From NCBI GenBank assembly GCA_002698705.1, contig NZZM01000030.1, positions 5,403 to 58,634 of the forward strand: a stretch of 53,232 nt of DNA, given 5' to 3'. Shown in pieces: positions 1,633 to 36,595 of this stretch; positions within the stretch are counted from its first letter, which is position 1; each line of letters begins with the position of its first letter. The translations under genes were made by a program, and so were the position numbers. Source of the stretch: Formosa sp. (GTDB lineage: Bacteria; Bacteroidota; Bacteroidia; Flavobacteriales; Flavobacteriaceae). Under the pieces are notes generated by a model. It did no database searches. It saw nothing but the letters and a program-made list of their open reading frames with translations, and was not told the DNA's origin.

Positions 1633-3873
1633 TTGAGAAAAGTTTTTATTTTATTTTTTTTCGTTCCGGCTTTGATCTTTTCCCAAGAGGAAATCAAAGG
1701 TAAGATTATGGAAATGACTTCAAATGGAAACGAGCTTCCGCTCATGGGTGCTAACGTTCTTTGGGAAGGTACTTCAGTTGGAAGTGTTTCCGATAAAAAT
1801 GGAAACTTTAGACTGTCCTATGATAAATCTTACAAAACATTGGTTGTAAGTTATGTTGGGTTTTCGGCTCAAAAAATTGATGTTATAAACATTAAAAAAT
1901 TTTTAAAAATTATTTTACAACCCACAGATGTTTTGGATGATATAGTTATTAAAGGACGTAAAAAAACTTCAGCTACTTCTTATATTACTTCACAAAATAT
2001 AAGCACTATTAGCAGTAAAGAACTTTTGAAAGCGGCTTGCTGCAATCTTTCTGAAAGTTTTGAAACAAATCCCTCTATTGATGTGAATTTTTCAGATGCG
2101 GTTTCTGGAACAAAGCAAATTAAAATGTTGGGTCTTAATAGCCCCTATGTTCTCATAACCAACGAAAATATTCCAGCGGTACGCGGTGCTGCTCAAGTTT
2201 ATGGGATGAGTTTTATCCCTGGAAGTTGGGTCGAAAGTATACAAGTTACCAAGGGCGCTGGTAGTGTTATCAACGGTTTTGAAAGCATTACAGGGCAGAT
2301 CAATGCAGAGCTCGTAAAGCCATTGACAGATCCCAAATTATTTGTGAATCTTTACGGATCAATCAATGGGCGATTGGAACTCAATACACACTTAAATACT
2401 AGACTTGATTCTAATTGGAGTACCGGTTTTTATATTCACGCTGATAACCGCAACCAGACTTTTGATAAAAACAAAGATTCTTTCTTGGATATGCCTTTGG
2501 GACAGCAAATTAATGTAATGAACAAATGGCAATATACAAATATTAAAAAAGGACTTATAAGTTTTATAAATTTTCGATTTTTAGACGATCAAAAACAAAC
2601 AGGGCAAATAGATTATAACCCCTCAATTCATGAATTTGGAAGCACCGTCTGGGGTAGCGAAGTAGATACCAAACGCTTTGATTTTTCAGCCAAGTTTGGT
2701 TATGTCAATCCCGAAGTTACTTACCAGAGTCTGGGATTTCAGTTGGCTTATAGTCATCATGATCAAGCGGCATATTTTGGCAATCGAATTTATGATATTA
2801 ACCATAAAAGTGTCTATACAAATTTGGTATACAACTCTATTATTAGTAATACCCGTAATAAAATTAAAACAGGCATTACTTTTTCACACGATGCTTACCA
2901 AGAGCAAGTTGAAAACAACAACTTTGGCAGAACTGAAAATTCAATAGGTGGTTTCTTTGAATACGCATTTGATAATTTGGAGAATCTCAATCTAACTGCA
3001 GGAATGCGCCTGGACCACCACAACTTACTAGGAACATTTTTAACGCCGCGTTTGCATGTTCGTTATACACCTTGGGGGAAATCTGCTTTGCGTTTTTCAA
3101 TAGGACGAGGGAAGAGATCGGCCAATATTTTTGCTGAAAATCAACGGATTTTTGCTTCAAACAGAGTTGTTAATATACAAAACAGTAATGGTGTTATTTA
3201 TGGGTTAGATCCTGAAATTGCATGGAATTATGGATTTTCAATGATTCAGGGCTTTACACTTTTTGAAAGAAAAGCCGATTTGATCTTCGATTTTTACAGA
3301 ACTGATTTTCAAAATCAGGTAGTGGTTGATTATGAAACACCCACAGAAATAAATTTTTACAATCTCAATGGTGAGAGTTTTGCTAGTAGCCTTCAAATCG
3401 AATTTAATTATACTCCCTTGGAGCGATTAGATTTTAAATCTGCTTATAAATATTACGATGTAAGAACAGAATATAACATCGGTGAATTACAAAAACCACT
3501 CATACCCAAACAACGTTTTTTTACCAATATTTCCTATGAAACAGTATCAAATAAAAAAGGGGGGCTATGGAAATTTGATAGTACTTATAATTGGACAGGC
3601 CAGCAGCGATTTTCATCGACACTGCTAAACCCTATAGCTTTTCAATTGCCTGCGTATTCTCCTACATTTTCAACATTAAATGCGCAAATAACAAAAGTAT
3701 TTTCAAATCAATTTGAGATCTATGTTGGAGGTGAAAATATAACAAATGCAAGACAAATCAATCCTATTTTAGGATCGGAGAATCCCTTTGGTTCAAATTT
3801 TGATAGTACATTTGTATATGGTCCAATTTTTGGAAGTATGTATTACGCTGGATTGCGATTTAAATTGAATTAA
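1633..3873 (+). CDS. TonB-dependent outer-membrane receptor, probably for a metal
   Basis: This 746-residue outer-membrane protein has an N-terminal signal peptide (RKVFILFFFVPALIFSQ). A carboxypeptidase-regulatory-like beta-sandwich follows (about 20-110, with GANVLWEGTSVGSVSDKNG and VVSYVGFSAQKIDV), then a TonB plug (about 120-235, with QIKMLGLNSPYVLITNENIP) and a 22-strand-type barrel ending in a typical GLRFKLN. It begins with TTG: the signal peptide reads directly from that codon and no ATG would preserve it. A double cysteine (136-137) sits in the plug region, unusual for sugar receptors. Directly downstream, 17 bases away, is a secreted HMA-type metal-binding protein, so a copper-like metal ion or metal chelate is the inferred substrate. 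There is no SusD partner. Receptor identity is firm; the ligand is inference. Confidence 0.93.
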   Translation: MRKVFILFFFVPALIFSQEEIKGKIMEMTSNGNELPLMGANVLWEGTSVGSVSDKNGNFRLSYDKSYKTLVVSYVGFSAQKIDVINIKKFLKIILQPTDVLDDIVIKGRKKTSATSYITSQNISTISSKELLKAACCNLSESFETNPSIDVNFSDAVSGTKQIKMLGLNSPYVLITNENIPAVRGAAQVYGMSFIPGSWVESIQVTKGAGSVINGFESITGQINAELVKPLTDPKLFVNLYGSINGRLELNTHLNTRLDSNWSTGFYIHADNRNQTFDKNKDSFLDMPLGQQINVMNKWQYTNIKKGLISFINFRFLDDQKQTGQIDYNPSIHEFGSTVWGSEVDTKRFDFSAKFGYVNPEVTYQSLGFQLAYSHHDQAAYFGNRIYDINHKSVYTNLVYNSIISNTRNKIKTGITFSHDAYQEQVENNNFGRTENSIGGFFEYAFDNLENLNLTAGMRLDHHNLLGTFLTPRLHVRYTPWGKSALRFSIGRGKRSANIFAENQRIFASNRVVNIQNSNGVIYGLDPEIAWNYGFSMIQGFTLFERKADLIFDFYRTDFQNQVVVDYETPTEINFYNLNGESFASSLQIEFNYTPLERLDFKSAYKYYDVRTEYNIGELQKPLIPKQRFFTNISYETVSNKKGGLWKFDSTYNWTGQQRFSSTLLNPIAFQLPAYSPTFSTLNAQITKVFSNQFEIYVGGENITNARQINPILGSENPFGSNFDSTFVYGPIFGSMYYAGLRFKLN

Positions 3874-16272: not shown

Positions 16273-16887
16273 ATGGCAAAAGAAGGTAACATTACTCTCA
16301 CAAATTTGGTCTATGGACTTGGTGCAGCAATTGTAATTATTGGAGCACTTTTTAAAATTCAACATTGGCCTTATGCTAGTATAATTCTTACAACAGGTAT
16401 GATTGTTGAAGCAGGTGTATTTACTTACTCTGCATTTGAAAAGGTTGGTTCTGATTTAGATTGGTCTATTGTTTACCCAGAGCTTTCTGGTGGAAAATCC
16501 AAGGGCGGAAAAAAAGAATCTCCTGAAGGCTTATTGACAAAAAAATTAGATAATCTTTTAAAGGAAGCTAAAATTGATGGAGCTCTTGTAAAAAGTTTAG
16601 GAGAAAACATAAAGAATTTAAATGCAACTGCTTCTTCTATGGACGGTTCTGCTGGGGCAACCAACAGGTATAGTGAGCAAATGACTGAAGCAACTAAGGC
16701 AATGAAAGATATTAATGTTCTTTACAAAGCACAAATGGAAAGTGCAGCAAAACAAGCTGAGATTAATGCAGAATCTATCGAGAATGCTACTAAGTTAAAA
16801 GAGCAGATGGAATCCCTTGCTTCTAATTTATCTTCTTTAAATGGGGTTTATGGAGGTATGTTGTCAGCAATGAACAAAAAAAGCTAA
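16273..16887 (+). CDS. gldL: Gliding motility / T9SS motor protein GldL, 204 aa
   Basis: GldL (PorL) is the inner-membrane stator-like subunit that, with GldM, converts proton-motive force into the movement that drives type IX secretion and gliding. Two transmembrane helices are visible (about 9-27 and 35-54) with a short LFKIQHWPYAS loop. Lys28, His31 and the membrane-embedded Glu46 match the residues known as Lys27, His30 and Glu49 in the Flavobacterium johnsoniae protein; Glu49 is proposed for the proton path. The inter-helix loop is about four residues shorter here. The rest is a Lys/Glu-rich coiled coil in the cytoplasm (about 90-190). It sits 47 bases after gldK and 45 before gldM. Confidence 0.96.
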   Translation: MAKEGNITLTNLVYGLGAAIVIIGALFKIQHWPYASIILTTGMIVEAGVFTYSAFEKVGSDLDWSIVYPELSGGKSKGGKKESPEGLLTKKLDNLLKEAKIDGALVKSLGENIKNLNATASSMDGSAGATNRYSEQMTEATKAMKDINVLYKAQMESAAKQAEINAESIENATKLKEQMESLASNLSSLNGVYGGMLSAMNKKS

Positions 16888-16932
16888 TTAATTTTTACTA
16901 ATTAATTTTAATTTAAAAAAAAACTAAAAATT

Positions 16933-18504
16933 ATGGCAGGAGGAAAATTATCTGCAAGGCAGAAAATGATTAATTTAATGTACTTAGTTTTCATAGCTAT
17001 GATGGCTATGCAAATGTCAAAAGAAGTATTAACTGCTTTTGGAAATATGGAGATTAAATTTGCCGAATCTAATGCAATAACAACAGAGACCAATGAAGCT
17101 CTTTTAGCTAATCTTTTAGTCAAAGCTGAAGAAAAACCCTTAGAATTTGCTGTCGCAGCTAATAACGCTCAGCTAGTTAGTACATTTTCTGATGAATTCT
17201 ACAGGTATATTGAGACTTTAAAAAATGATCTTTTAAAGGCTGGTGATTACAATGTCGACCCCGAAACAGGACAATTAGATTTCGAAAAAATGGAAAAGAC
17301 AGATATTTTAGATGATTTATGGTTTTCTGGAGATCGATTGACTAAAGAAGGTGCTGTAGTAATGGGTAAAATAGATGAATACAAATCTAGTATTAGAGAA
17401 GTATTAGGAGCTGATGTGAAGTATAAAAAAGCTTTGGAAACTTTTGAAAATAGATTTAATACTGAACAAGTTTACAACAAAAGAGCCGAAACCAAACAAG
17501 ATTGGTTGTATTATAATTACCAAGGCTTCCCTGCTGTTGCCTCTTACACAAAATTAACAGCTATGCAAAATGATGTTAAAGTCACTGAGGCAAGTTTGTT
17601 TAATTTATTTTTAGGAAACACCCTCACTGAGGCTGTAACTTTAAAAAACTATCAAGCTATTGTCTTGGCTGAAAAATCAGCATTCTTTGCAGGTGAGAAG
17701 TTTCAAGGCAAAGTAGTACTTGGTAAGTATGCCAATGTAACTCCTACCAAATTGGTTGTTCAAGGGAAAGAAATAAATATTGCTAATGCTATTGATGATA
17801 CTGGTGCAGCAACTCTAGATTTTAATGTTGGAAATGTAGGTGAGAAAACATTAAATGGTCAATTTACATTTTTGGAAGATGGTAAACCACTTGAAATTCC
17901 AATCGTTGGGAATTATGTAGTTGTACCAAAACCTAACGAAGCTTCTGTTGCTGCTGATAAAATGAATGTCGTTTACCGAGGTTTACCTAATCCACTTACA
18001 ATTTCTGTTCCAGGTGTTTCAAACAATGATGTTTCGGTAAGTGCTGCTGGTCTAGTTAAAGTTGGCAATGGTAAATACAACTTAACCCCAAAAACTGGAA
18101 GTGAGGTTATTGTTAAGGTTAATGCCAAACTAGAGGGTGGAACACAAATAAATGATAGTAAAGTATTCAGAATTAAAGATTTACCGAAGCCTATTGGTAA
18201 TATTGCAGGTATTTCTAGTGGTTCTTTAAATAAAAATGATATCACATCATCCAAAGTAATAGCTGAATTTAGAGATTTTCCATATGATTTAAATGTTAGA
18301 GTAACAGGATTTGTTGTCAACATTTCTGGAAAAGCTCCGGTAACTGTTACGGGTCAATATTTAAGCCCTGAAGCCAAGGCTGCAGTTAACTCATCTAGAA
18401 AAGGATCAATGATTACGATAACAGATATAAAAACTCGTTTAGAAGGTTTAACAAGCGTATCTTTAAAAGAGCCAACCCCAATATCTGTTAAATTAAAAAA
18501 TTAA
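16933..18504 (+). CDS. gldM: Gliding motility / T9SS motor protein GldM, 523 aa
   Basis: GldM (PorM) spans the inner membrane once and extends through the periplasm to the GldKN ring, transmitting motor movement. The N-terminus MAGGKLSARQKMINLMYLV contains the conserved Arg9 thought to pair with the GldL glutamate, followed by the single transmembrane helix (about 14-30) and SKEVLTAFG. The periplasmic part (about 35-523) is beta-rich and divides into the four known domains. The last carries VRVTGFVVNISGKAPVTVTG near 455-475. The length is close to the family norm (about 515). It is four bases from gldN, so the two are tightly co-translated. The identification is secure. Confidence 0.97.
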   Translation: MAGGKLSARQKMINLMYLVFIAMMAMQMSKEVLTAFGNMEIKFAESNAITTETNEALLANLLVKAEEKPLEFAVAANNAQLVSTFSDEFYRYIETLKNDLLKAGDYNVDPETGQLDFEKMEKTDILDDLWFSGDRLTKEGAVVMGKIDEYKSSIREVLGADVKYKKALETFENRFNTEQVYNKRAETKQDWLYYNYQGFPAVASYTKLTAMQNDVKVTEASLFNLFLGNTLTEAVTLKNYQAIVLAEKSAFFAGEKFQGKVVLGKYANVTPTKLVVQGKEINIANAIDDTGAATLDFNVGNVGEKTLNGQFTFLEDGKPLEIPIVGNYVVVPKPNEASVAADKMNVVYRGLPNPLTISVPGVSNNDVSVSAAGLVKVGNGKYNLTPKTGSEVIVKVNAKLEGGTQINDSKVFRIKDLPKPIGNIAGISSGSLNKNDITSSKVIAEFRDFPYDLNVRVTGFVVNISGKAPVTVTGQYLSPEAKAAVNSSRKGSMITITDIKTRLEGLTSVSLKEPTPISVKLKN

Positions 18505-18508
18505 TTCT

Positions 18509-19564
18509 ATGAAACATTTAGCTTTATTTTTTCTTTTTGTACCTATAGTAGCCTTTAGTCAGCCTAATGTACTGAATGCATTTGGACCTGAAGAAATTGG
18601 AGATAATTATGAAGCGTCGCTTTTACCTTTGGAATATGAATTTGTTAGTGATAAAGATGTTCTCTTTTCAAAAACTATTTGGGAAGAAATCAGTTTAGAC
18701 GAGCGTGTAAATTTTCCAATGTATTTTCCAGTTGACACTACTGTAGTCGGAAATGAACGACGTCCACTGATTCACCACCTTTATACAGCAGTATTGTCAG
18801 GAGAAATAGAGAATATTTACGAACAAGATAATTTAAAAGATAAAAAATCTATCGAAAAGTTAAGTAGACAACTTATATATAGAAAGATTCGCGACGGAAG
18901 TGACAACAATCTTATTGGAAAAGCTAGAATTAATACATTTAATGGAAAAATCCCTTTCATCGAATCTTATAACGTGGTAGTTCCTGATAGTCTAATTCAG
19001 TTTGAATCTGATTACAACAGCGGATTATTTGAAAGTATGAGTGTAAAGAAACAAGACAGTTTATATAATGATTGGGAAGATTCATTAAACGATATAATCT
19101 TTGAAAATAAGTTGTTAACTGATGAAGAATTTTCAGTCGAGAAATTTGAATACCAAGATGTAGTTGATTATAAATTAAAAGGAATTTGGTACTTCAATAA
19201 GCGAATTGGTGAGCTTCGCTACAGGCCGATTGCAATTTGTCCAATTATTAAGATACCAAAGGAAAAAGATGCAAATCCAGACGATCCTGATACTTTCGAG
19301 ATGTTTTGGGTTTATTTTCCTGACGCTAGGTATATTCTACACGAAGCACATGCTTTTAATGATAAAAATACTTCTAAGCCAATAACTTTCGATCATTTAA
19401 TTAATTCAAGGCGTTTTTCAGGTTTTATATATAAAGAAGACAATGTTTATGAAGACCGTGATATCAAAGGATATATTTCTGAAAATGCATTAATGCAACT
19501 ATTAGAATCACAGCGCATAAAGGAAAAGCTAAGAAACCTAGAACAAGATATGTGGAGCTATTAA
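18509..19564 (+). CDS. gldN: Gliding motility / T9SS ring protein GldN, 351 aa
   Basis: GldN (PorN) is a periplasmic protein that forms the type IX ring with GldK. A signal peptide is present (KHLALFFLFVPIVAFSQ). The conserved core contains SKTIWEEISLDERVNFP (about 53-70), LKGIWYFNKRIGELRYRPIAI (about 223-243, a family hallmark) and FWVYFPDARYILHEAHAFN (about 268-286). No metal or catalytic motif is expected. It is the last gene of the gldKLMN unit and is followed seven bases later by a strong terminator, which supports one transcript ending here. The identification is secure. Confidence 0.96.
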   Translation: MKHLALFFLFVPIVAFSQPNVLNAFGPEEIGDNYEASLLPLEYEFVSDKDVLFSKTIWEEISLDERVNFPMYFPVDTTVVGNERRPLIHHLYTAVLSGEIENIYEQDNLKDKKSIEKLSRQLIYRKIRDGSDNNLIGKARINTFNGKIPFIESYNVVVPDSLIQFESDYNSGLFESMSVKKQDSLYNDWEDSLNDIIFENKLLTDEEFSVEKFEYQDVVDYKLKGIWYFNKRIGELRYRPIAICPIIKIPKEKDANPDDPDTFEMFWVYFPDARYILHEAHAFNDKNTSKPITFDHLINSRRFSGFIYKEDNVYEDRDIKGYISENALMQLLESQRIKEKLRNLEQDMWSY

Positions 19565-22902: not shown

Positions 22903-22975
<73 letters not shown>

Positions 22976-22985
22976 CTAAAACAAT

Positions 22986-24020: not shown

Positions 24021-27000
24021 ATGAAATCTATTGAAAAAATATTTGTAGGTAAAAACCTTACCCATAATAAAGAAAATCAAGTTTCTGGTAGTGAGGTAAC
24101 GATTGGCAACGAACTTTTTTATAAAATTTGTAATGTTGATGCTATGCGTCCTTTTTTTATGAGTATTGTAAGTAATTCCAATCATTGGCTTTTTATTTCA
24201 AGCTCTGGTGGCCTTTCTGCCGGAAGAAAAAATAGTAATCATGCTTTATTTCCATATTATACAGATGATAAAATCACAGAATCTAGTGAATATTCTGGAT
24301 CTAAATCAATTTTTTTAATAACAAACTCTAGTATTACTTCTTTGTGGGAGCCTTTTTCAAAACGTCACCAGGGAATTTATAATGTCACTAGAAATTTATA
24401 TAAAAATATCTATGGTAATAAGCTTATTTTTGAAGAGATAAATCACGATTTAGAGGTCTCGTTCAGTTATGAATGGAATACAAGTGACAAATATGGTTTT
24501 GTAAGAAAGTCTATATTAAAAAATAATTCAGATTCCCTGACTAACATTAGATTACTAGACGGGATACAAAATATTTTACCCTATGGAGTTGAGGTCGACT
24601 TGCAAAACAGCACTAGTAACTTAGTAGATGCTTATAAAAAATGTGAACTTGAGAAGGACTCAGGAATTGGTATATTCTCTTTAAGCTCAATAATAGTAGA
24701 TAAAGCAGAACCAAGTGAAGCTCTCAAAGCAAATATTGTTTGGTCAGTTGGTTTGAAAAAATCTAAAAAACTTATTTCATCTCTGCAGTTGGATGATTTT
24801 AGACTTGGTAATAAAATCATTCAAGAGCATGATATTAAAGCAGAACGTGGAGCCTACTTCTTGACTGATAATATTTCACTTTGCCCGAATGAAAAACAGA
24901 AATGGAGCATCATTGCCAATGTTAATCAAACTATAGATGATATTATTGAACTAAAGCACGATTTAAAACAAACTAAAAATTTAAGTGAAATAATTGATAA
25001 ATCTATTGAAAACGGAACGCAACGCCTTATTTCACTTGTTGCTGCTTCTGATGGACTACAACTAACTTCAGATAGCGTTAGAAATGCCCGTCATTTTTCT
25101 AATACAATGTTTAATATAATGCGAGGTGGTATTTTCGATAATAATTATAATATTGAAAAAGGAGATTTTTCACAATATATCGAAAAAGCTAACTTTAAAG
25201 TATTTTTTAAGAAAAAAAATGTTTTAGAATCCTTACCAGATATTTTTGATTTAGACTATTTAAAAAATATTGCTACAAATGATGACGATAAAAATTTCAA
25301 GCGTCTGTGTTTAGAGTATTTACCTTTAAAGTTTAGCCGTCGTCACGGAGACCCAAGTCGTCCATGGAATAAGTTTTCAATCAATACGCGAAGTGAAGTT
25401 GATGGTTCAAAAATTTTAGATTATCAAGGAAATTGGCGTGATATTTTTCAAAATTGGGAAGCATTGGTTTATTCTTATCCGGAGTTTATAGAAGGAATGA
25501 TTCATAAATTTCTAAATGCTACTACTTTTGATGGATACAACCCTTACAGGGTCACTAAAGAGGGTTTTGATTGGGAGGTCATTGAACCTGAAAATCCTTG
25601 GTCTTACATTGGATATTGGGGTGATCATCAAATTATTTATTTATTGAAGTTTTTGGAGTTTATTGAAAAATATTATCCTGGTAAATTAGAAAGTTACTTT
25701 TCTAAAGATTTATTTGTTTACGCAAATGTACCCTATAAAATTAAATCTTATGAGGAAATTTTAAAGGACCCTAAGAATACAATTGAATTTGACTATAAAG
25801 CAGAAGAAAAAATTCAAAATAAACGAGACGAAATTGGAGTTGATGGAGCTCTTTTAAGAGAAACCCATGTTTTTATTTATAAAGTAAACTTCATAGAAAA
25901 AATTCTTGCTACAGTTTTAGCAAAAATCTCTAATTTTATTCCTGAGGGTGGAATATGGATGAATACCCAACGCCCAGAATGGAATGACGCAAACAATGCT
26001 TTAGTTGGAAATGGTGTATCAATGGTTACTCTTTATTATCTCCGGCGGTTTTTAAAATTTTTTGAAGGTGTTTTGATTAAGTCCTCTACAACTGATGTCG
26101 CTATTTCTTCAGAACTTTTAATATTCTTTAATTCTATTAAAATTGTATTTGACAATCACAAGACCCTCTTGAAAGGTTCAATTTCAAACATAGATCGTAA
26201 GCTGATTTTAGATGGTTTGGGAAATGCAGGTAGTATTTACAGACAAACAATATATCAAAATAGTTTTTCTGGTGAGAAGAATGTAATTTATATTGATGAA
26301 ATTAATTCATTTATAAAAATTACTTTAGATTTTCTCGAACATTCTATTGATGCGAATAAGCGAACTGATAAACTTTATCATGCTTATAATCTGATGACAG
26401 TTGAAGCTAATAACTCTATTTCTATATCAAATTTACCAGAAATGCTTGAAGGTCAAGTAGCCGTACTAAGCTCTGGGTACTTATCAACTGAAGTAGCTTT
26501 ACAAGTTTTGGATGGCCTAAAATCAAGTGCTTTATTTAGATCAGACCAGTACAGCTATATTCTATATCCAGATAAAATACTTCCGAGGTTTATTAATAAA
26601 AATAATATAACAGAAGCTCAAATTAAATCTTCGGATTTACTAAGATTATTGCTAAAGGATGGTAATAAGCAAATTATTACAAAAGATATTAATGGGGATT
26701 ATCATTTTAATGGAAATTTCAATAATGTAGACCATTTAAAAAAATCATTGACAAATCTATCGTCTAAATATAATCATCTTGTTGAGAAAGATGCTGAGAA
26801 GATATACAATATTTTTGAATCAATTTTTAATCATAAATCCTTTACTGGTCGTTCAGGAACTTTCTTTGGGTATGAGGGCTTAGGCTCTATTTATTGGCAT
26901 ATGGTGTCTAAACTGTTGTTAGCTACTTGTGAAGTAACTCATAAAGCAATCGAGGAACAATCTGACCAATCTAAAATAGGTAGACTTTATGAACACTATT

Positions 27001-27482
27001 TTGAAATAAATGAAGGTATTGGAGCACATAAATCACCTGAACTTTACGGCGCGTTTCCAACAGATCCCTATTCCCATACCCCTAGTGGAAAAGGAGCTCA
27101 ACAACCAGGGATGACCGGACAAGTCAAGGAAGATATTTTAAGTAGATTTGGTGAACTGGGATTCTACGTAAAGGATGGATGCCTTACGTTTTCACCAGTA
27201 GTTTTAGCTCCCTCAGAATTTTTATTAGAACCAAAAATTTTTGAATATTACGACGTCCAGCATCAAAAGCATAGCATTTCTCTGGAAAAAGATAGTCTTG
27301 CGTTTACTATATGCCAAGTTCCGATTATATATAAAATAAATTTAACAACCGCTATATCCGTAGAATTTTCTAATGGTAAATCCAAACAATTTAAAGGTAA
27401 TCGTTTGGATGAAAATATAACGCAAGACATTTTAAAAAGATCTTCTAGGGTCAAACAAGTAACAGTATATGTTATCAAATAA
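24021..27482 (+). CDS. Large cytoplasmic glycoside phosphorylase, GH149/GH94-like (probable beta-1,3-glucan phosphorylase), 1153 aa
   Basis: No signal peptide or membrane segment is seen, so it acts in the cytoplasm. The N-terminal beta-sandwich contains SNHWLFISSSGGLSAGR (about 53-69) and NHALFPYYTDDKI. The (alpha/alpha)6 barrel shows RHGDPSRPWNKFSI, PWSYIGYWGDHQIIYLLKFL and RPEWNDANNALVGNG. Asp656 in WND corresponds to the catalytic acid position of GH94-type phosphorylases. Later GRSGTFFGYEGLGSIYWHM and HTPSGKGAQQPGMTGQVKEDI fit the phosphate and substrate loops. Length and context (beta-glucan-type GH30, sugar symporter) favour GH149, which cleaves beta-1,3-oligoglucans with phosphate to glucose-1-phosphate. 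It is the first gene of the operon, 18 bases before the next. Superfamily likely, exact family inferred by recognition. Confidence 0.72.
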   Translation: MKSIEKIFVGKNLTHNKENQVSGSEVTIGNELFYKICNVDAMRPFFMSIVSNSNHWLFISSSGGLSAGRKNSNHALFPYYTDDKITESSEYSGSKSIFLITNSSITSLWEPFSKRHQGIYNVTRNLYKNIYGNKLIFEEINHDLEVSFSYEWNTSDKYGFVRKSILKNNSDSLTNIRLLDGIQNILPYGVEVDLQNSTSNLVDAYKKCELEKDSGIGIFSLSSIIVDKAEPSEALKANIVWSVGLKKSKKLISSLQLDDFRLGNKIIQEHDIKAERGAYFLTDNISLCPNEKQKWSIIANVNQTIDDIIELKHDLKQTKNLSEIIDKSIENGTQRLISLVAASDGLQLTSDSVRNARHFSNTMFNIMRGGIFDNNYNIEKGDFSQYIEKANFKVFFKKKNVLESLPDIFDLDYLKNIATNDDDKNFKRLCLEYLPLKFSRRHGDPSRPWNKFSINTRSEVDGSKILDYQGNWRDIFQNWEALVYSYPEFIEGMIHKFLNATTFDGYNPYRVTKEGFDWEVIEPENPWSYIGYWGDHQIIYLLKFLEFIEKYYPGKLESYFSKDLFVYANVPYKIKSYEEILKDPKNTIEFDYKAEEKIQNKRDEIGVDGALLRETHVFIYKVNFIEKILATVLAKISNFIPEGGIWMNTQRPEWNDANNALVGNGVSMVTLYYLRRFLKFFEGVLIKSSTTDVAISSELLIFFNSIKIVFDNHKTLLKGSISNIDRKLILDGLGNAGSIYRQTIYQNSFSGEKNVIYIDEINSFIKITLDFLEHSIDANKRTDKLYHAYNLMTVEANNSISISNLPEMLEGQVAVLSSGYLSTEVALQVLDGLKSSALFRSDQYSYILYPDKILPRFINKNNITEAQIKSSDLLRLLLKDGNKQIITKDINGDYHFNGNFNNVDHLKKSLTNLSSKYNHLVEKDAEKIYNIFESIFNHKSFTGRSGTFFGYEGLGSIYWHMVSKLLLATCEVTHKAIEEQSDQSKIGRLYEHYFEINEGIGAHKSPELYGAFPTDPYSHTPSGKGAQQPGMTGQVKEDILSRFGELGFYVKDGCLTFSPVVLAPSEFLLEPKIFEYYDVQHQKHSISLEKDSLAFTICQVPIIYKINLTTAISVEFSNGKSKQFKGNRLDENITQDILKRSSRVKQVTVYVIK

Positions 27483-27500
27483 AATCCAAAATTAAATCTA

Positions 27501-28532
27501 TTGAAAATTATTGGTTTAATATCAACATTCTTCTTTGTAAGCTATCTTTATATTTTCTCACCAAAAATAGACGTAGTTAAGGTTTCTGGTGACAAAATAC
27601 TAGTGAATAATAAAACATATTTTATAAAAGGTATTTGTTATCACCCTGTTCCAAAGGGATCTACAAAGCGCAGTTTTAATAGCTTAAATCAAGACTTAGT
27701 TTTAATGAAGGAAGCTGGAGTTAATACCATTCGTTTGTACGAACCAATTGATGATATTGAAGTTTTAAATAAAATTCAAGCTAATGGAATGAGAGTGATT
27801 ATAAGTTTTGGTTATAATCAAAATGGATTATATGATATAAAATCAGGTACATTTATAAATTATATTAAGAAATATAAATTTCACAAAGCAATCTTATTAT
27901 GGGAATTAGGAAATGAGTATAATTACCATCCTGAATGGTTTGAAAATGATATCCAAAATTGGTATGATGCTTTAAGTTATGCTACAGACTTAATTCACAA
28001 AGTAGATAAAAACCATCCAGTGTCAACCGCTCATGGTGATTTACCAAATAAACAAGCTCTTTCATCTAACCCTAATCTTGATATTTGGGGGTTAAACGTA
28101 TATCGCTGGGATAAGCCACAATCTATTTTTGAGCAATGGAAAAATTTAAGTACTAAGCCTATTTATCTTTCTGAAACAGGAGCAGATAGTTACATGAAAA
28201 TTAGCAAGTCAGGATTTAAACAAGGCGAAAATCAAAAGGCTCAAGCCACTGCTAACGCTAAAATTATTGACGCTGTTTTTAATTACAGTAATATGGTTTC
28301 TGGGCTTTTTATTTTTTCTTTTACTGATGGGTTATGGAAAGCAGGAAATCCAGATTTGCAAGACGTCGGAGGTTGGGCACCCAATAGTAGCGGTGTTCCA
28401 TATGATGGTGCACCAAATGAAGAATTTTGGGGAATTGTAGATATTGATAGAAATAAAAAGCAAACATTTGATATTATTAAAGAAAAGTATAACTCGTTTA
28501 ATCCATCAAATAAAAATATTGGGAATGATTAA
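27501..28532 (+). CDS. Membrane-anchored TIM-barrel glycoside hydrolase (GH2/GH5/GH72-like, clan GH-A), 343 aa
   Basis: An N-terminal hydrophobic segment (about 4-20) anchors or exports it. The barrel starts with FIKGICYHPVPKGSTKRSF and MKEAGVNTIRLYEPIDD, a pattern shared with GH2 barrels and with fungal GH72 beta-1,3-glucanosyltransferases. The acid/base is Glu139 in LLWELGNEYNYHP and the nucleophile is Glu225 in IYLSETGAD. It begins with TTG, 18 bases after the phosphorylase; the hydrophobic segment starts right there, so a later start would remove it. It overlaps the GH30 gene by 8 bases. Inferred role: endo-cleavage or transglycosylation of beta-glucan on the periplasmic face. Glycosidase assignment is firm; the family number is uncertain. 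Confidence 0.8.
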   Translation: MKIIGLISTFFFVSYLYIFSPKIDVVKVSGDKILVNNKTYFIKGICYHPVPKGSTKRSFNSLNQDLVLMKEAGVNTIRLYEPIDDIEVLNKIQANGMRVIISFGYNQNGLYDIKSGTFINYIKKYKFHKAILLWELGNEYNYHPEWFENDIQNWYDALSYATDLIHKVDKNHPVSTAHGDLPNKQALSSNPNLDIWGLNVYRWDKPQSIFEQWKNLSTKPIYLSETGADSYMKISKSGFKQGENQKAQATANAKIIDAVFNYSNMVSGLFIFSFTDGLWKAGNPDLQDVGGWAPNSSGVPYDGAPNEEFWGIVDIDRNKKQTFDIIKEKYNSFNPSNKNIGND

Positions 28533-30021
28533 TTTAAAATGGACTATTTTTTTAATATCAGTTATGTTATTAAATCTCTTGCTTTATAATTGTCAAACTC
28601 CTGAACTTACAATTAAAATTTATGAGACTTCTGAAAGTGGTAACAAGTTGACTCTTATTAATGAATCTAGCCCATCACAATCACCTTCGATTATTAGTAT
28701 AAATTTTGATAAAAAATTTCAAACTATTTCTGGTTTTGGAGGTGCATTTACGGAGGCTTCTGCACATCTTCTTAACCAATTAAGTCCTTCTAAAAGAACC
28801 GAAATTTTGAATGCTTATTTTAGTGTTGAAGGCGCAGCCTATTCTATGGCTAGAACCCATATGAATTCCTGTGACTTTTCATTAGATCACTACTCTTATT
28901 CCCCTGTATATGGTGATAAAAATCTGGACCATTTTTCCATTGATGAAGATCGTACAGATTTGATTCCCATGATAAAAGATGCCTTAAAAATTTCTAAGGA
29001 GGGCTTTAAGCTCTTTGCATCTCCTTGGACAGCACCACCTTGGATGAAAGATAACAATGCATGGGTTGGAGGGAAATTACTTCCAGAATACTATGACACT
29101 TGGGCTTTATTTTTCTCCAAGTATGTAGATGCTTATAAAGATGAGGGAATTGATATTTGGGGTTTTACTGTTGAAAACGAACCAATGGGCAATGGAAACA
29201 ACTGGGAAAGTATGCATTTCACACCTGAGGAAATGACTGACTTTGTTCAAAACTATCTGGGACCAAAATTAGAAGGGGATGGTAAAGGAGATCTTGTAAT
29301 TCTTGGATACGATCAAAATCGAGCAGATATAAAAGAATGGGTAGATGTGATGTACAGAGATATAGACAGCTCTAAATATTTTGATGGTACAGCAATACAC
29401 TGGTATGAGAGCACCTACAACTACTTTCCCGAGGATCTACAATACGCACATCAAAAAGCCCCTAATAAATATTTGATTCAAACTGAAGCCTGCGTAGATT
29501 CAGAAGTACCGGTTTGGAAAGACGATGCATGGTACTGGAAAAAAGAAGCCACCGATTGGGGCTATGATTGGCGTGAAGCTTCCAAAAAATATTTACATCC
29601 TAAATATGCCCCAGCCAATCGCTATGCAAGAGACATTATTGGATGCCTTAACAACTGGGTAGATGGTTGGGTAGATTGGAATATGGTTTTGAACCGCCAA
29701 GGCGGCCCAAATTGGTTTAAAAATTGGTGCATAGCTCCCATTATTGTAGATCCAGATTTAGATGAAGTATATTACACACCATTGTATTATATTATGATGC
29801 ATTTTAGTAAATTTATAAGGCCACAAGCGGATGTAATAGCTGCGGATTCAACAGATAAAGATTTAATGGTCACTGCAGCGCATAACCCTGATGGCTCTAC
29901 CGCAGTGGTAGTTTTCAATGAAGGTTTCACAAGAAAAACCTATCAATTAAAAGGATTAAAATTAGAAAAGACCGTCAGTATCAGTCCGCAAGCCATTCAA
30001 ACAATTTTAATTACCAACTAA
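28525..30021 (+). CDS. GH30-family glycoside hydrolase lipoprotein (probable beta-glucanase), 498 aa
   Basis: The protein begins with a lipoprotein signal (INLKWTIFLISVMLLNLLLYNC). The catalytic barrel opens with QTISGFGGAFTEASAHLLNQL. The acid/base is Glu219 in TVENEPMGNGNNW and the nucleophile is Glu321 in LIQTEACVD. SPWTAPPWMKDN and the C-terminal beta-sandwich (PDGSTAVVVFNEGF) are GH30 features of the glucocerebrosidase/beta-1,6-glucanase side (subfamilies 1 and 3). The ATG at 28525 overlaps the upstream stop by 8 bases; a longer frame from 28444 lies inside the upstream gene and would hide the signal peptide. Expected role: removal of beta-1,6-linked glucose from laminarin-like glucan at the cell surface. 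Enzyme class secure, exact linkage inferred. Confidence 0.9.
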   Translation: MINLKWTIFLISVMLLNLLLYNCQTPELTIKIYETSESGNKLTLINESSPSQSPSIISINFDKKFQTISGFGGAFTEASAHLLNQLSPSKRTEILNAYFSVEGAAYSMARTHMNSCDFSLDHYSYSPVYGDKNLDHFSIDEDRTDLIPMIKDALKISKEGFKLFASPWTAPPWMKDNNAWVGGKLLPEYYDTWALFFSKYVDAYKDEGIDIWGFTVENEPMGNGNNWESMHFTPEEMTDFVQNYLGPKLEGDGKGDLVILGYDQNRADIKEWVDVMYRDIDSSKYFDGTAIHWYESTYNYFPEDLQYAHQKAPNKYLIQTEACVDSEVPVWKDDAWYWKKEATDWGYDWREASKKYLHPKYAPANRYARDIIGCLNNWVDGWVDWNMVLNRQGGPNWFKNWCIAPIIVDPDLDEVYYTPLYYIMMHFSKFIRPQADVIAADSTDKDLMVTAAHNPDGSTAVVVFNEGFTRKTYQLKGLKLEKTVSISPQAIQTILITN

Positions 30022-30032
30022 ATTAATAAATT

Positions 30033-31451
30033 ATGCAAACAACAAATACAACAGTCAATAAGGTATCAATGAGCCAAAAAATTGCTTTTGGATTTGGAAT
30101 GTTGGCCAACCAAATGTTTCCTGCGATCTTAGGAATCTTTATGGTTGTTCTAATTGAAGATTTGGGGTTTTCTGGCTGGATGTGGTCTTTAATTTTTTTG
30201 TGGCCTAGGATTTTTGATGCTTTCCTTGATCCTATCATGGGTTTTATTTCTGATAATACTAAGTCCAAATGGGGAAGACGTAGACAATATGTTTTTATTG
30301 GTGGAATTCTTATGGGACTTGCATATATATATATGTGGCAGCTTTATAAGTCTGATGGTGTAGAATATAACTTTTGGTATTTCTTTTTATGGTCTCTAGT
30401 ATTTTATTTGGGGTTGACTATTTTTAGCGTTCCTTATGTTGCTATGGGTTATGAAATGAGTGATGATTTTCACGAGAGAACAAATATTATGGCTATCTCG
30501 CAGTGGATTGGTCAATGGGCTTGGGTTATTGCACCTTTATTTTGGATAATAATGTATGATCAAGATTGGTTTCCCTCTGCGGATGTTGCTGTAAGAGAAT
30601 TGGCTATCTGGGTTGCTATTCCTTGTACGCTTTTCGCTCTAGTACCTGCCTTATTTATTAAAAGTAAATCTACATTAAACGAGGACTATGAGCCTCTAAA
30701 CTTGCCGAATGTTGGAAATAGCCTAATAAAAATATTTGAAAGTTTTATTGAAGCATTTAAAATTAAAGAATTTAGAAAATTATGTGGTGCAACTTTTTTA
30801 ATATTCAACGCTTTCAACACAGTAGCAGCATTGACATTTTTTGTAATTGTTTATAAATTATTTGATGGAGATGCCGGTTCATCTGGTATTTGGGTTTCTA
30901 TGTTTGGGTGTTTGGGTGCTTTAGGCACGACATTTATTGTAATTCCAGCAGTTGCTTGGATGTCTAAAAAATTTGGTAAGAAAAAGGCTTTTATGTTAGC
31001 ACAAGCAATCTCACTTGTTGGCTATATAATGCTTTATTTTTTATTCATACCCGGTAAACCATTTCTATATATCATTGCTTTACCCTTCTTTTCTTTTGGA
31101 ATAGGCAGCTTATTTACAATAATGATGTCAATGACTGCAGATGTAATTGATATTGATGAATTAAATACTGGAAAACGAAGGGAAGGAATTTTTGGTGCCA
31201 TTTATTGGTGGATGGTAAAAGTAGGCTTTGCTATTGCAGGTGCTCTCAGTGGTGCTATTATTACATTCGTTGGTTTTAATCCTGACCTTTCTACTCTAGA
31301 TCAACAAGGGGCTGTAGATGGGTTGCATGCTTTTTTCTGTTTTTTCCCAATGGGAGGAACAATTCTAGCAATGTTTATCATGCGTAACTATAGCATCAAT
31401 GAAGATAAAGCTAAAGAGACAAAAGCTGCATTGGCAGAAAAAAGAAAATAA
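30033..31451 (+). CDS. GPH-family (MelB-type) sugar:cation symporter, 472 aa
   Basis: This is an inner-membrane transporter with about 12 helices and the glycoside-pentoside-hexuronide layout. An early IFDAFLDPIMGFISDNTKSKWGRRRQYVFIGG region (about 65-95) carries the conserved Asp and Arg residues of the MelB family. The later TADVIDIDELNTGKRREGIFGAIYWWMVKVG segment (about 370-400) is the second diagnostic motif. It follows the GH30 gene by 11 bases, so it belongs to the same operon and probably imports the released glucose, gentiobiose or laminari-oligosaccharides for the cytoplasmic phosphorylase. No outer-membrane SusC/SusD pair is linked. Family assignment is confident; substrate inferred from neighbours. 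Confidence 0.92.
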   Translation: MQTTNTTVNKVSMSQKIAFGFGMLANQMFPAILGIFMVVLIEDLGFSGWMWSLIFLWPRIFDAFLDPIMGFISDNTKSKWGRRRQYVFIGGILMGLAYIYMWQLYKSDGVEYNFWYFFLWSLVFYLGLTIFSVPYVAMGYEMSDDFHERTNIMAISQWIGQWAWVIAPLFWIIMYDQDWFPSADVAVRELAIWVAIPCTLFALVPALFIKSKSTLNEDYEPLNLPNVGNSLIKIFESFIEAFKIKEFRKLCGATFLIFNAFNTVAALTFFVIVYKLFDGDAGSSGIWVSMFGCLGALGTTFIVIPAVAWMSKKFGKKKAFMLAQAISLVGYIMLYFLFIPGKPFLYIIALPFFSFGIGSLFTIMMSMTADVIDIDELNTGKRREGIFGAIYWWMVKVGFAIAGALSGAIITFVGFNPDLSTLDQQGAVDGLHAFFCFFPMGGTILAMFIMRNYSINEDKAKETKAALAEKRK

Positions 31452-31471
31452 TTAAGGAATGTGCAATTTAG

Positions 31472-31710
31472 TTTCTTAAATTTTGCTACCATAACCCATG
31501 CGGAAGCTACCATACTATTTAAATCTCGCTTGGTACTCCAACCCAATATTTGTATTGACAGATTATTACATCCGTATATAACTGCTACATCACTATTTAC
31601 AAAAGGCTTGTAATTTCATAATTCAAACTAAGGCTGTTAACTTTATCAAAATCTTTGATGACTTCAAGAACTGAATATCCATGTCCAGTTCCTAAGTTGT
31701 AAATTCCATA
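31472..31710 (-). pseudogene. galE: C-terminal remnant of UDP-glucose 4-epimerase (galE), frameshifted
   Basis: Reading leftward from 31710 gives YGIYNLGTGHGYSVLEVIKD, which matches the NLGTGxGYSVLEV block of GalE. The frame continues to NYEITSLL and a stop. A shift to another frame restores GalE-like sequence: SDVAVIYGCNNL, then IQILGWSTKRDLNSM and ASAWVMVAKFKK, equivalent to the GDVA...LGW...W ending of intact GalE. About 80 codons remain of roughly 340, with at least one frameshift and no N-terminal NAD-binding domain anywhere in the window. The remnant abuts and slightly overlaps the 3' end of the TauE/SafE gene (31692-31710). UDP-galactose epimerase function is certainly lost from this copy. 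Confidence 0.8.
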
Positions 31711-34099: not shown

Positions 34100-36595
34100 C
34101 TATTTTGGATTTAAAATATAATCTATTCGTTTTGTAACGTCTTTAAGGTGTATGCGCGTCATACTATCTTTACTAAGAGCAACTGCTCTTATTACTAAAC
34201 GTTTCAGTTCACTCAATTCAAATCGAGTGACAGCTCTAATATCAGATTGACTCGTATTGATAGCAGTCGATTTTACATAATCACTTCCCTGCCTTTTGGA
34301 CTGATTATCAGCAGTCATGAGATAAAAAAGCCGGTCAATATGTGCTCTTTGGAGATTTCTGCGGTAAGTATCAATTTTTTCACCTCTTTTGAGTTCACTC
34401 CAAATACTGGTGCGCAGTGCAGTGGTTAGATCTGTTAATTTAAAAGCCTCTGAACCGTTCAATGTTTCATTTTCAATAAGCCGTGCCATTTTTCCTAAAC
34501 TCAATAAGTTTTTAAGAGTACGCTCTTGTAATCCTCTGATGCGTTCCACAGATCCTGAATACTCAATGCGTTCAAAGATAGCTTTGTCTATCAACCACGA
34601 TGGGGTTTGAAATAATTCTTTGTCTAGAAAGGTCAGAGCATCAACTTGTTTTTTTCTAGGCACATGTGTGTATACAGCCCCTTCTTGTTCGGCTGTTTTA
34701 TAATGTTCATAAACTCCCCCAACATTATTAGAAACATGACCCATATAACGGTTGAACTGAGAAAGTACTTGTCCATACATGGCTTCCAAATCGTTGTAAT
34801 CTTCTCCGTCTTTGGTAGTCCATTGAATTAAATTAGGAACTATACGTTCCAAGTTTTTAATTCCATAGGAGCTTGCCAAAATAGCGTCATCACCAAGATC
34901 TTCTGTTTGGGAACTAGGATCTACTACATCGCCTGCTTGCTGGTGTCCAAAGCGATACATAGGATCTCCCGAATGTTTTGTAATCCAACTGTTTAATACT
35001 TCTTTTTCTTCTTCGGCAGTTGTTCCCGGAATTGGGCGGTACCCCCAAGCAATGGCATACTTATCATAAACACCAACATTAGGCATGAGTGCTACGCCTT
35101 TATCTTCAGGTTGAGCTACATAATTAAATCTAGCATAATCCATAATTGAAGGAGCAGTACCATATTTTTTAGTGAATTCAACATTTCTTAAATCCTCTAC
35201 CTTGTAAGCGCAACTGCTACCCATATTGTGTGGTAGACCTAGGGTGTGACCAACTTCATGAGCAGAAACAAAACGAATAAGGCGCCCCATAACCTCATCT
35301 TCGAACTCCGCACTCCGAGCCTCAGGGTTTATTGCTGCTGTTTGAACAAAAAACCAGCCTCGAAGCAATGTCATAACGTTATGGTACCAATTGATATCAC
35401 TTTCTAAAATTTCTCCCGTTCTTGGATCGCTTACATGTGGACCATTTGCATTTGGAATCGGTGATGCTAAATACCTCACCACAGAGTAACGAACATCTTC
35501 TGGGCTCCACTCGGGATCTTCCTCAGGCGTTGGAGGATCTGCTGCAAGGATAGCATTTTTAAAACCAGCAGCCTCAAAGGCTACCTGCCAATCTTCAATC
35601 CCTTGTTTGATATATTTACGCCATTTTTTTGGTGTAGCACGATCAATATAATAAACAATTGGTTTTTTTGGTTCCACTAACTCTCCTGCCTTAAATTTAT
35701 CCAGATCTTCCGCTTTTATTTCAAGCCTCCATCGATCCAAATACACTAATTCCCGACTCCGCTGATCTCCTAATCCATAATCCACTTGACCCCTTGAAAA
35801 CCAGCCTACGCGTTGGTCAAAATAACGTCTTTTCATGGGGTTATCTGGTAATAAAATCATAGAATTATTGATTTCAACAGAAACAGTTCCTGTACTTGAA
35901 TTTGAGGGTGGAGCAGATGCCGCATAGGTTTTTACATGTCTGGCTTCAATATTGTTTGGATAGCTTTTAACACTTTCAATAAATGATTTGTTACTTTCTA
36001 GACGAGTAATTTTATATTGTTTTCTTCTAAAGCTTGGTAATCCAAGTGCTTTTACATCCGTTTTAAACAAGTCTGTTACATTTATTACAGTTGCAGTGGA
36101 GTCTAGACTGTAAGCCTTAATAGGAAAGCTGTACAGAATCGGTTCAAAGTTTGAATTTACAACCGCTTCGTGTACAGGTAAAGAATCGGCAGCAAACACT
36201 TCATGTGATACCACTCTTAACAAGACTTTTTTATCTCTTTTTTGCCATCTTAAAACTTGAGTATTTTGTTTTCCACCCCCAAATCCAATACCAGATGCAG
36301 TTTTGGCAATTCGGCTTACCATAAGCATTTCTTTTTCAAACAATGAATCTGGAATTTCGTAATAAAAATCGGCTTCAATTTTGTGAACTTTAAAAAGCCC
36401 CTCATCTGAAATAGCATCTTTTGTAATGACTTCAGAGTAGGTTTTAATTCCGTTCTTTTTTGGTTTTGGCGTAATACTGGTTTTTGATGTGGCATCTTTA
36501 TTTTTTTTGACAGAGCTTGCCTTGATGCTCAACGAGCAAGAATGAAGTAATATTAGTACGGCTAATAAAACAGTCGTTTTTAAATGTGTTTTCAT
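34100..36595 (-). CDS. Zinc-dependent metalloprotease lipoprotein (DUF5117/DUF5118 type), 831 aa
   Basis: The N-terminal signal ends in the lipobox LLHSC, so the protein is membrane-anchored outside the cytoplasm. A short DUF5118-like region and a DUF5117-like beta-rich domain (about 80-310) precede the metzincin-like catalytic domain. That domain carries HEVGHTLGLPHNMGSS, with the two zinc histidines and catalytic glutamate at 446-450 and the third histidine at 456. SIMDYARFNYVAQPED near residue 480 would include the Met-turn. The C-terminal 250 residues are helical. This multidomain layout is widespread in Bacteroidota, where the substrates are unknown. It precedes the small basic protein gene and follows lysS, 51 bases apart, all leftward. 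Confidence 0.92.
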   Translation of the reverse strand: MKTHLKTTVLLAVLILLHSCSLSIKASSVKKNKDATSKTSITPKPKKNGIKTYSEVITKDAISDEGLFKVHKIEADFYYEIPDSLFEKEMLMVSRIAKTASGIGFGGGKQNTQVLRWQKRDKKVLLRVVSHEVFAADSLPVHEAVVNSNFEPILYSFPIKAYSLDSTATVINVTDLFKTDVKALGLPSFRRKQYKITRLESNKSFIESVKSYPNNIEARHVKTYAASAPPSNSSTGTVSVEINNSMILLPDNPMKRRYFDQRVGWFSRGQVDYGLGDQRSRELVYLDRWRLEIKAEDLDKFKAGELVEPKKPIVYYIDRATPKKWRKYIKQGIEDWQVAFEAAGFKNAILAADPPTPEEDPEWSPEDVRYSVVRYLASPIPNANGPHVSDPRTGEILESDINWYHNVMTLLRGWFFVQTAAINPEARSAEFEDEVMGRLIRFVSAHEVGHTLGLPHNMGSSCAYKVEDLRNVEFTKKYGTAPSIMDYARFNYVAQPEDKGVALMPNVGVYDKYAIAWGYRPIPGTTAEEEKEVLNSWITKHSGDPMYRFGHQQAGDVVDPSSQTEDLGDDAILASSYGIKNLERIVPNLIQWTTKDGEDYNDLEAMYGQVLSQFNRYMGHVSNNVGGVYEHYKTAEQEGAVYTHVPRKKQVDALTFLDKELFQTPSWLIDKAIFERIEYSGSVERIRGLQERTLKNLLSLGKMARLIENETLNGSEAFKLTDLTTALRTSIWSELKRGEKIDTYRRNLQRAHIDRLFYLMTADNQSKRQGSDYVKSTAINTSQSDIRAVTRFELSELKRLVIRAVALSKDSMTRIHLKDVTKRIDYILNPK

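Follow-up and report, generated by a model that had tools for sequence, protein, structure and literature searches.

The window (the whole stretch of DNA analysed here, 53,232 nucleotides) is an internal part of the 76.5-kb contig C19, which belongs to a MAG of 1.77 Mb that is 83% complete with 5.5% contamination. ORF read-out of the window gives four intact co-directional ORFs on the + strand, positioned as in a preliminary description made from the nucleotide sequence. They encode a predicted GH149 phosphorylase (24021..27482; 1153 aa), a GH-A glycosidase-like protein (27501..28532; 343 aa, with a TTG start), a GH30 lipoprotein (28525..30021; 498 aa) and a GPH/MFS_2-type sugar:cation symporter (30033..31451; 472 aa), with +18, -8 and +11 nt between successive genes. 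The likely start of the GH30 gene is the ATG at 28525 (MINLKWTIFLISVMLLNLLLYNCQT...), giving an 8-nt overlap with the end of the gene before it, stop codon included; the start chosen by the ORF finder, a TTG at 28444, was rejected as too long.

Upstream of the operon are a tRNA-Met (22903-22976) and a PhzF-like gene, and downstream a galE relic and a TauE-like gene, the three genes all being on the strand opposite to the operon. The window also includes GldL/M/N genes (16273-19564), which identify the DNA as that of a member of the Bacteroidota, and a TonB receptor of 746 aa (1633-3873) that has no SusD partner. No SusD was found among the window proteins scanned and, apart from this TonB receptor, no SusC-type protein, in agreement with the local lack of the pair remarked on in the preliminary description. 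A promoter scan gave no more hits than shuffled sequences, and an Rfam search identified two tRNAs and nothing else. The galE relic, on the - strand at 31452-31700 between the symporter and TauE-like genes, is a frameshifted remnant of a UDP-glucose 4-epimerase gene, its two pieces matching, in order, the C-terminal part of TIGR01179 (29.6 and 15.4 bits). Also on the - strand, a met-zincin metalloprotease-like protein (DUF4953/DUF5117/DUF5118) is encoded at 34100-36595 and adjoins lysS.

The 1153-aa protein matches the NCBIfam GH149 equivalog NF058639 at 1770.7 bits (cut-off 1150) over residues 18-1151 and the crystallised GH149 Pro_7066 (PDB 6hq6) at 1579 bits over residues 19-1152, while a Pfam search gives no family. 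Every published GH149 active-site motif is kept: the WND motif (W654 N655 D656, with D656 catalytic), the RD motif (R473 D474) and H960 align to W651-D653, R470-D471 and H959 of Pro_7066, in which the roles of these residues have been described (PMC6771811). Homology to Pro_7066 is full length, with the catalytic D, the RD motif and the phosphate-recognition H conserved, and the difference is one of sequence divergence only. By these sequence matches the protein is assigned to the GH149 beta-1,3-glucan/oligoglucan phosphorylases, and its phosphorolytic activity is predicted from membership of that family. The preliminary description had called it GH149/GH94-like. The GH149 part holds, and the HMM assignment is indeed to a phosphorylase family; GH94 is excluded by an equivalog score far over the cut-off. 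That phosphorolysis saves energy is a well-founded general argument for phosphorylases and would apply here by prediction.

The second protein is less readily placed in a family. In Pfam, it matches Glyco_hydro_2_C at 34 bits, over the gathering score of 21 bits but across only approximately 75 residues, and GH72 just under the cut-off. Its AlphaFold model (mean pLDDT 84.8) has as fold neighbours GH2 (Z 29.5) and GH157, the latter at Z 27.8 on a par with many GH2, and GH158 is also among the Foldseek matches. By sequence, it matches LaGH157 at 27-28 bits. An alignment of 39 members has approximately 80 invariant columns, including those of the candidate catalytic glutamates E139 (in a GNE motif) and E225. 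Neither GH158 nor GH2 was retained as its family. The 39-sequence profile matches GH158 (9oro) at only 44 bits and partially, compared with 333 bits over the full length for the true GH158 relatives that adjoin GH149 in related genomes. With 343 aa, the protein is the barrel alone, without the N-terminal sugar-binding and Ig-like domains of GH2, so that its kinship with GH2 is at the level of the clan and not of architecture. It is a clan GH-A barrel whose sequence is only distantly related to GH2, GH157 and GH158. A GH0 neighbouring GH149 is listed for these PULs in the literature (PMC10108472), as is a 'GH2' for the Muricauda PUL (PMC13188888); the GH-A protein is probably the one behind these entries. 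It had been described as a membrane-anchored GH-A barrel: the barrel is recovered in the AlphaFold fold and a hydrophobic stretch is present at the N-terminus, although this may be either a signal or an anchor.

The remaining two genes are much as initially described, a GH30 lipoprotein and a GPH-type symporter. The GH30 protein matches PF02055 at 269 bits and its N-terminal Cys is conserved in relatives. It scores 237 against an endo-beta-1,6-glucanase model, below the cut-off of 700, and its best PDB matches are glucosylceramidases, which agrees with the GH30_1 beta-1,6-glucosidases. FbGH30 of a comparable PUL is an exo-beta-1,6-glucosidase that debranches laminarin (PMC6246565), and the same debranching activity is expected, from sequence, of the protein found here. 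The symporter matches PF13347 (MFS_2) at 203 bits (gathering score 27), and TIGR00792 (the gph subfamily) at 179 bits, below the cut-off of 231; it can be classed as GPH-like, scoring outside this curated subfamily. The PULs of the related loci L074 to L153 encode at least two kinds of symporter, 60-94% and 37-50% identical to that of the window, and clusters that are otherwise alike may have one kind in place of the other.

Relatives of the GH-A protein are encoded in 330 stretches found by scanning genome contigs, the nearest matches being in Flavobacteriaceae MAGs. In the best 80 of these 330 loci, GH149 lies within 9 kb of the GH-A gene in 75, an MFS gene is found in 77, a GH17-like protein in 72 and GH30 in 61 (each out of 80), and the usual order is SusD...GH16-GH149-GH17-GH-A-GH30-MFS-GH17. 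The window shares with L074, L079 and L086 the order GH149-GH-A-GH30-MFS without GH17; L153 shows this with a truncated start. Dozens of genomes carry homologous genes in a conserved order, which, as judged from sequence comparison, rules out a chance origin of the grouping. The operon carries GH149, GH30 and MFS together, the combination required of the variant B/variant 1 laminarin PUL. A real four-gene laminarin-type operon with GH149 is confirmed. The laminarin context given in the preliminary description is sustained by the PULs of the relatives.

Since the Pfam search for GH17 matched nowhere, a profile built from an alignment was used instead, with genome G263 as the positive control. 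This profile matched the control and found no GH17 in the MAG containing the window (G000) or in the draft MAGs carrying L074, L079, L086 and L153, so that a failure of the weak Pfam model does not explain the result. GH17 is likely, rather than certain, to be absent genome-wide from the MAG containing the window because these are draft MAGs (83% complete in this case).

Comparison of the window with L074 shows an uneven divergence along the operon. Differences at fourfold sites are 0.63 for GH149 and 0.57 for GH-A, but 0.34 for GH30 and 0.37 for MFS, and identity is 94% for MFS compared with 75% for GH149. This contrast suggests that the 3' half has been recombined or transferred and that the operon may be a mosaic.

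The MAG includes six SusD genes and three GH16 genes. One of its contigs, C35, carries a block composed of a regulator, SusC, SusD, a CBM4/PKD protein, one gene without a family assignment and two GH16 genes. The SusC matches TIGR04056 at 654 bits; one GH16 protein matches the laminarinase ULam111 at 307 bits and the other also matches laminarinases (PDB). Among the six SusDs of the genome, that of C35 is the best match to 17 of 18 SusD genes located near GH149/GH-A clusters in other genomes. It is 60-62% identical, over the full length, to the SusDs of such PULs (for example, 617 bits and 61.6% identity with that of L060, the next paralogue in the genome scoring 199, and 604 bits with that of L136, the next scoring 197). 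The block, together with its flanking genes, recurs in two related MAGs (G298 and G299), those that carry L086 and L153, with SusC, SusD and GH16 65-84% identical; no GH149 was found beside it in the stretches of these MAGs that were read. In the MAGs carrying L074 and L079 no close match to the C35 SusC was found (at most 39% identity, over parts).

An assembly break is an unlikely cause of the missing SusCD pair, as the operon is interior to the 76.5-kb contig C19 and the C35 PUL, whose flanking genes are conserved in relatives, is interior to a 57-kb contig. In principle, C35 could come from another organism given the 5.5% contamination of the MAG, but its GC (0.326, with 0.322 for the window) and tetranucleotide profile (r 0.984) fit those of the window. 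Orthologous SusCD and GH16 genes, recurrence in relatives and matching composition together indicate that the canonical laminarin PUL is split in this lineage and that, on sequence criteria, C35 carries its SusCD-GH16 half. Of the two options put forward in the preliminary description for the missing outer-membrane pair, another locus is the one supported, and use of small oligosaccharides only is not upheld because the genome includes this laminarin-type SusCD with two GH16 genes. The claim that the operon is a complete outside-to-inside route is not upheld either, because the operon alone includes no known endo-beta-1,3-glucanase.

We estimate a probability of roughly 0.85 that the operon represents the inner half of a laminarin PUL of marine flavobacteria (the classical variant B/variant 1), separated from the outer half and operating as follows. 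The C35-encoded GH16 laminarinases, glycan-binding lipoproteins and SusC/SusD would cut laminarin and bring the oligosaccharides into the periplasm, where the GH30 lipoprotein would take off beta-1,6-linked glucose branches and the GH-A enzyme would trim the chains. The GPH symporter would then move short beta-1,3-glucans and glucose over the inner membrane. In the cytoplasm, GH149 would use phosphate to release glucose-1-phosphate stepwise, and phosphoglucomutase (PGM), of which family genes are present in the genome, would convert this to glucose-6-phosphate. In this scheme, where each protein acts, what it acts on, what the symporter carries, whether the two loci are regulated together and what the GH-A enzyme does are inferred from the families and from published work (PMC6246565, PMC6298971, PMC5827456). 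The variant B PUL is induced by laminarin (PMC6298971). A beta-1,3-glucan other than laminarin may also be the substrate.

The lack of a SusCD pair in the 53-kb window would also be expected of a stand-alone scavenging operon, taking up small beta-glucan oligosaccharides released by other organisms through general porins. CAZyme clusters with GH149 but no SusCD have been described from Bacteroidetes (PMC5827456) and from an NS4 MAG (PMC10108472), and nothing close to the C35 SusC was found in the MAGs of L074 and L079. These two misses may, however, stem from incomplete MAGs and, with the orthologous laminarin-type SusCD and two laminarinase-like GH16 genes of C35 in the same genome, we consider scavenging improbable. 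We give still less credence to an operon for some other beta-glucan, such as beta-1,6-glucan or mixed-linkage glucan, or for oligosaccharide synthesis by reverse phosphorolysis. Glycoside phosphorylases can work in both directions (PMC5827456), the GH30 protein has its sub-cut-off match to the endo-beta-1,6-glucanase model and the GH-A enzyme leaves room for such a function. Nevertheless, the glucosylceramidase matches of GH30 point to beta-1,6-glucosidases, beta-1,3-glucanase families (GH16, GH17 and GH158) are co-located and conserved in relatives, and homologous PULs are induced by laminarin (PMC6246565, PMC6298971), so that both versions of this alternative appear very unlikely.

The operon, read as the inner half of a laminarin PUL, belongs to a known type. 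In 2018, GH149 of Bacteroidetes was reported from PULs as well as from CAZyme clusters without susCD (PMC5827456), the 'variant 1' PUL has been defined as GH149-GH0-GH30_1-GH17 and, in 2023, a variant 1 PUL without susCD was described in the NS4-clade MAG W_MB115 (both PMC10108472). As in the variant B/variant 1 PULs of Formosa Hel1_33_131, Polaribacter Hel1_33_49 and Muricauda lutaonensis, GH149, a 'GH2/GH0' glycosidase, GH30_1 and MFS are clustered, and GH16 and SusCD are found in the same genome. Here, however, the SusCD-GH16 half is on another contig and GH17 was not detected. CAZymes located apart from susCD are shared with W_MB115 and with Maribacter, where laminarin genes are dispersed (PMC11345257), but in the present case the partner SusCD locus has been identified within the same genome. 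The Maribacter strains are also entirely without GH17 and GH30, whereas the window operon has GH30. What is added to the SusCD-less GH149 clusters and variant 1 PUL type already known is the separated partner in the same genome and the GH17-free form, both recurring in related MAGs.

Few carbon pools in the sea are as large as laminarin, and during algal blooms GH149 clusters rank with the most highly expressed (PMC10108472). From this locus it can be seen how a marine gliding bacterium with a small genome may keep a laminarin pathway with uptake apart from intracellular phosphorolysis. It also draws attention to the GH-A enzyme, the one protein of the operon without a family-based function, which is widespread, highly conserved and adjoins GH149 across Flavobacteriaceae. 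A tentative extension, which we find doubtful as a whole, is that a lineage of marine Flavobacteriaceae with small genomes has the PUL stably split into SusCD-GH16 capture loci and GH17-free phosphorolytic loci, and that the GH-A enzyme represents a new laminarin-acting GH family that has taken over trimming of the beta-1,3 chain.

A distant relative of this enzyme occurs as part of a larger protein. Laminarin PULs in genomes of the same family and the same order encode, at L052:1194-4361 and at six similar loci (alignment A6), a protein of approximately 1055 aa, the first approximately 390 residues of which are related (25-29%) to the GH-A enzyme of the window. An AlphaFold model of the 1055-aa protein is of too low confidence (pLDDT 41) to decide its fold; for the C-terminal approximately 650 residues many antiparallel strands are predicted, possibly forming an outer-membrane barrel.
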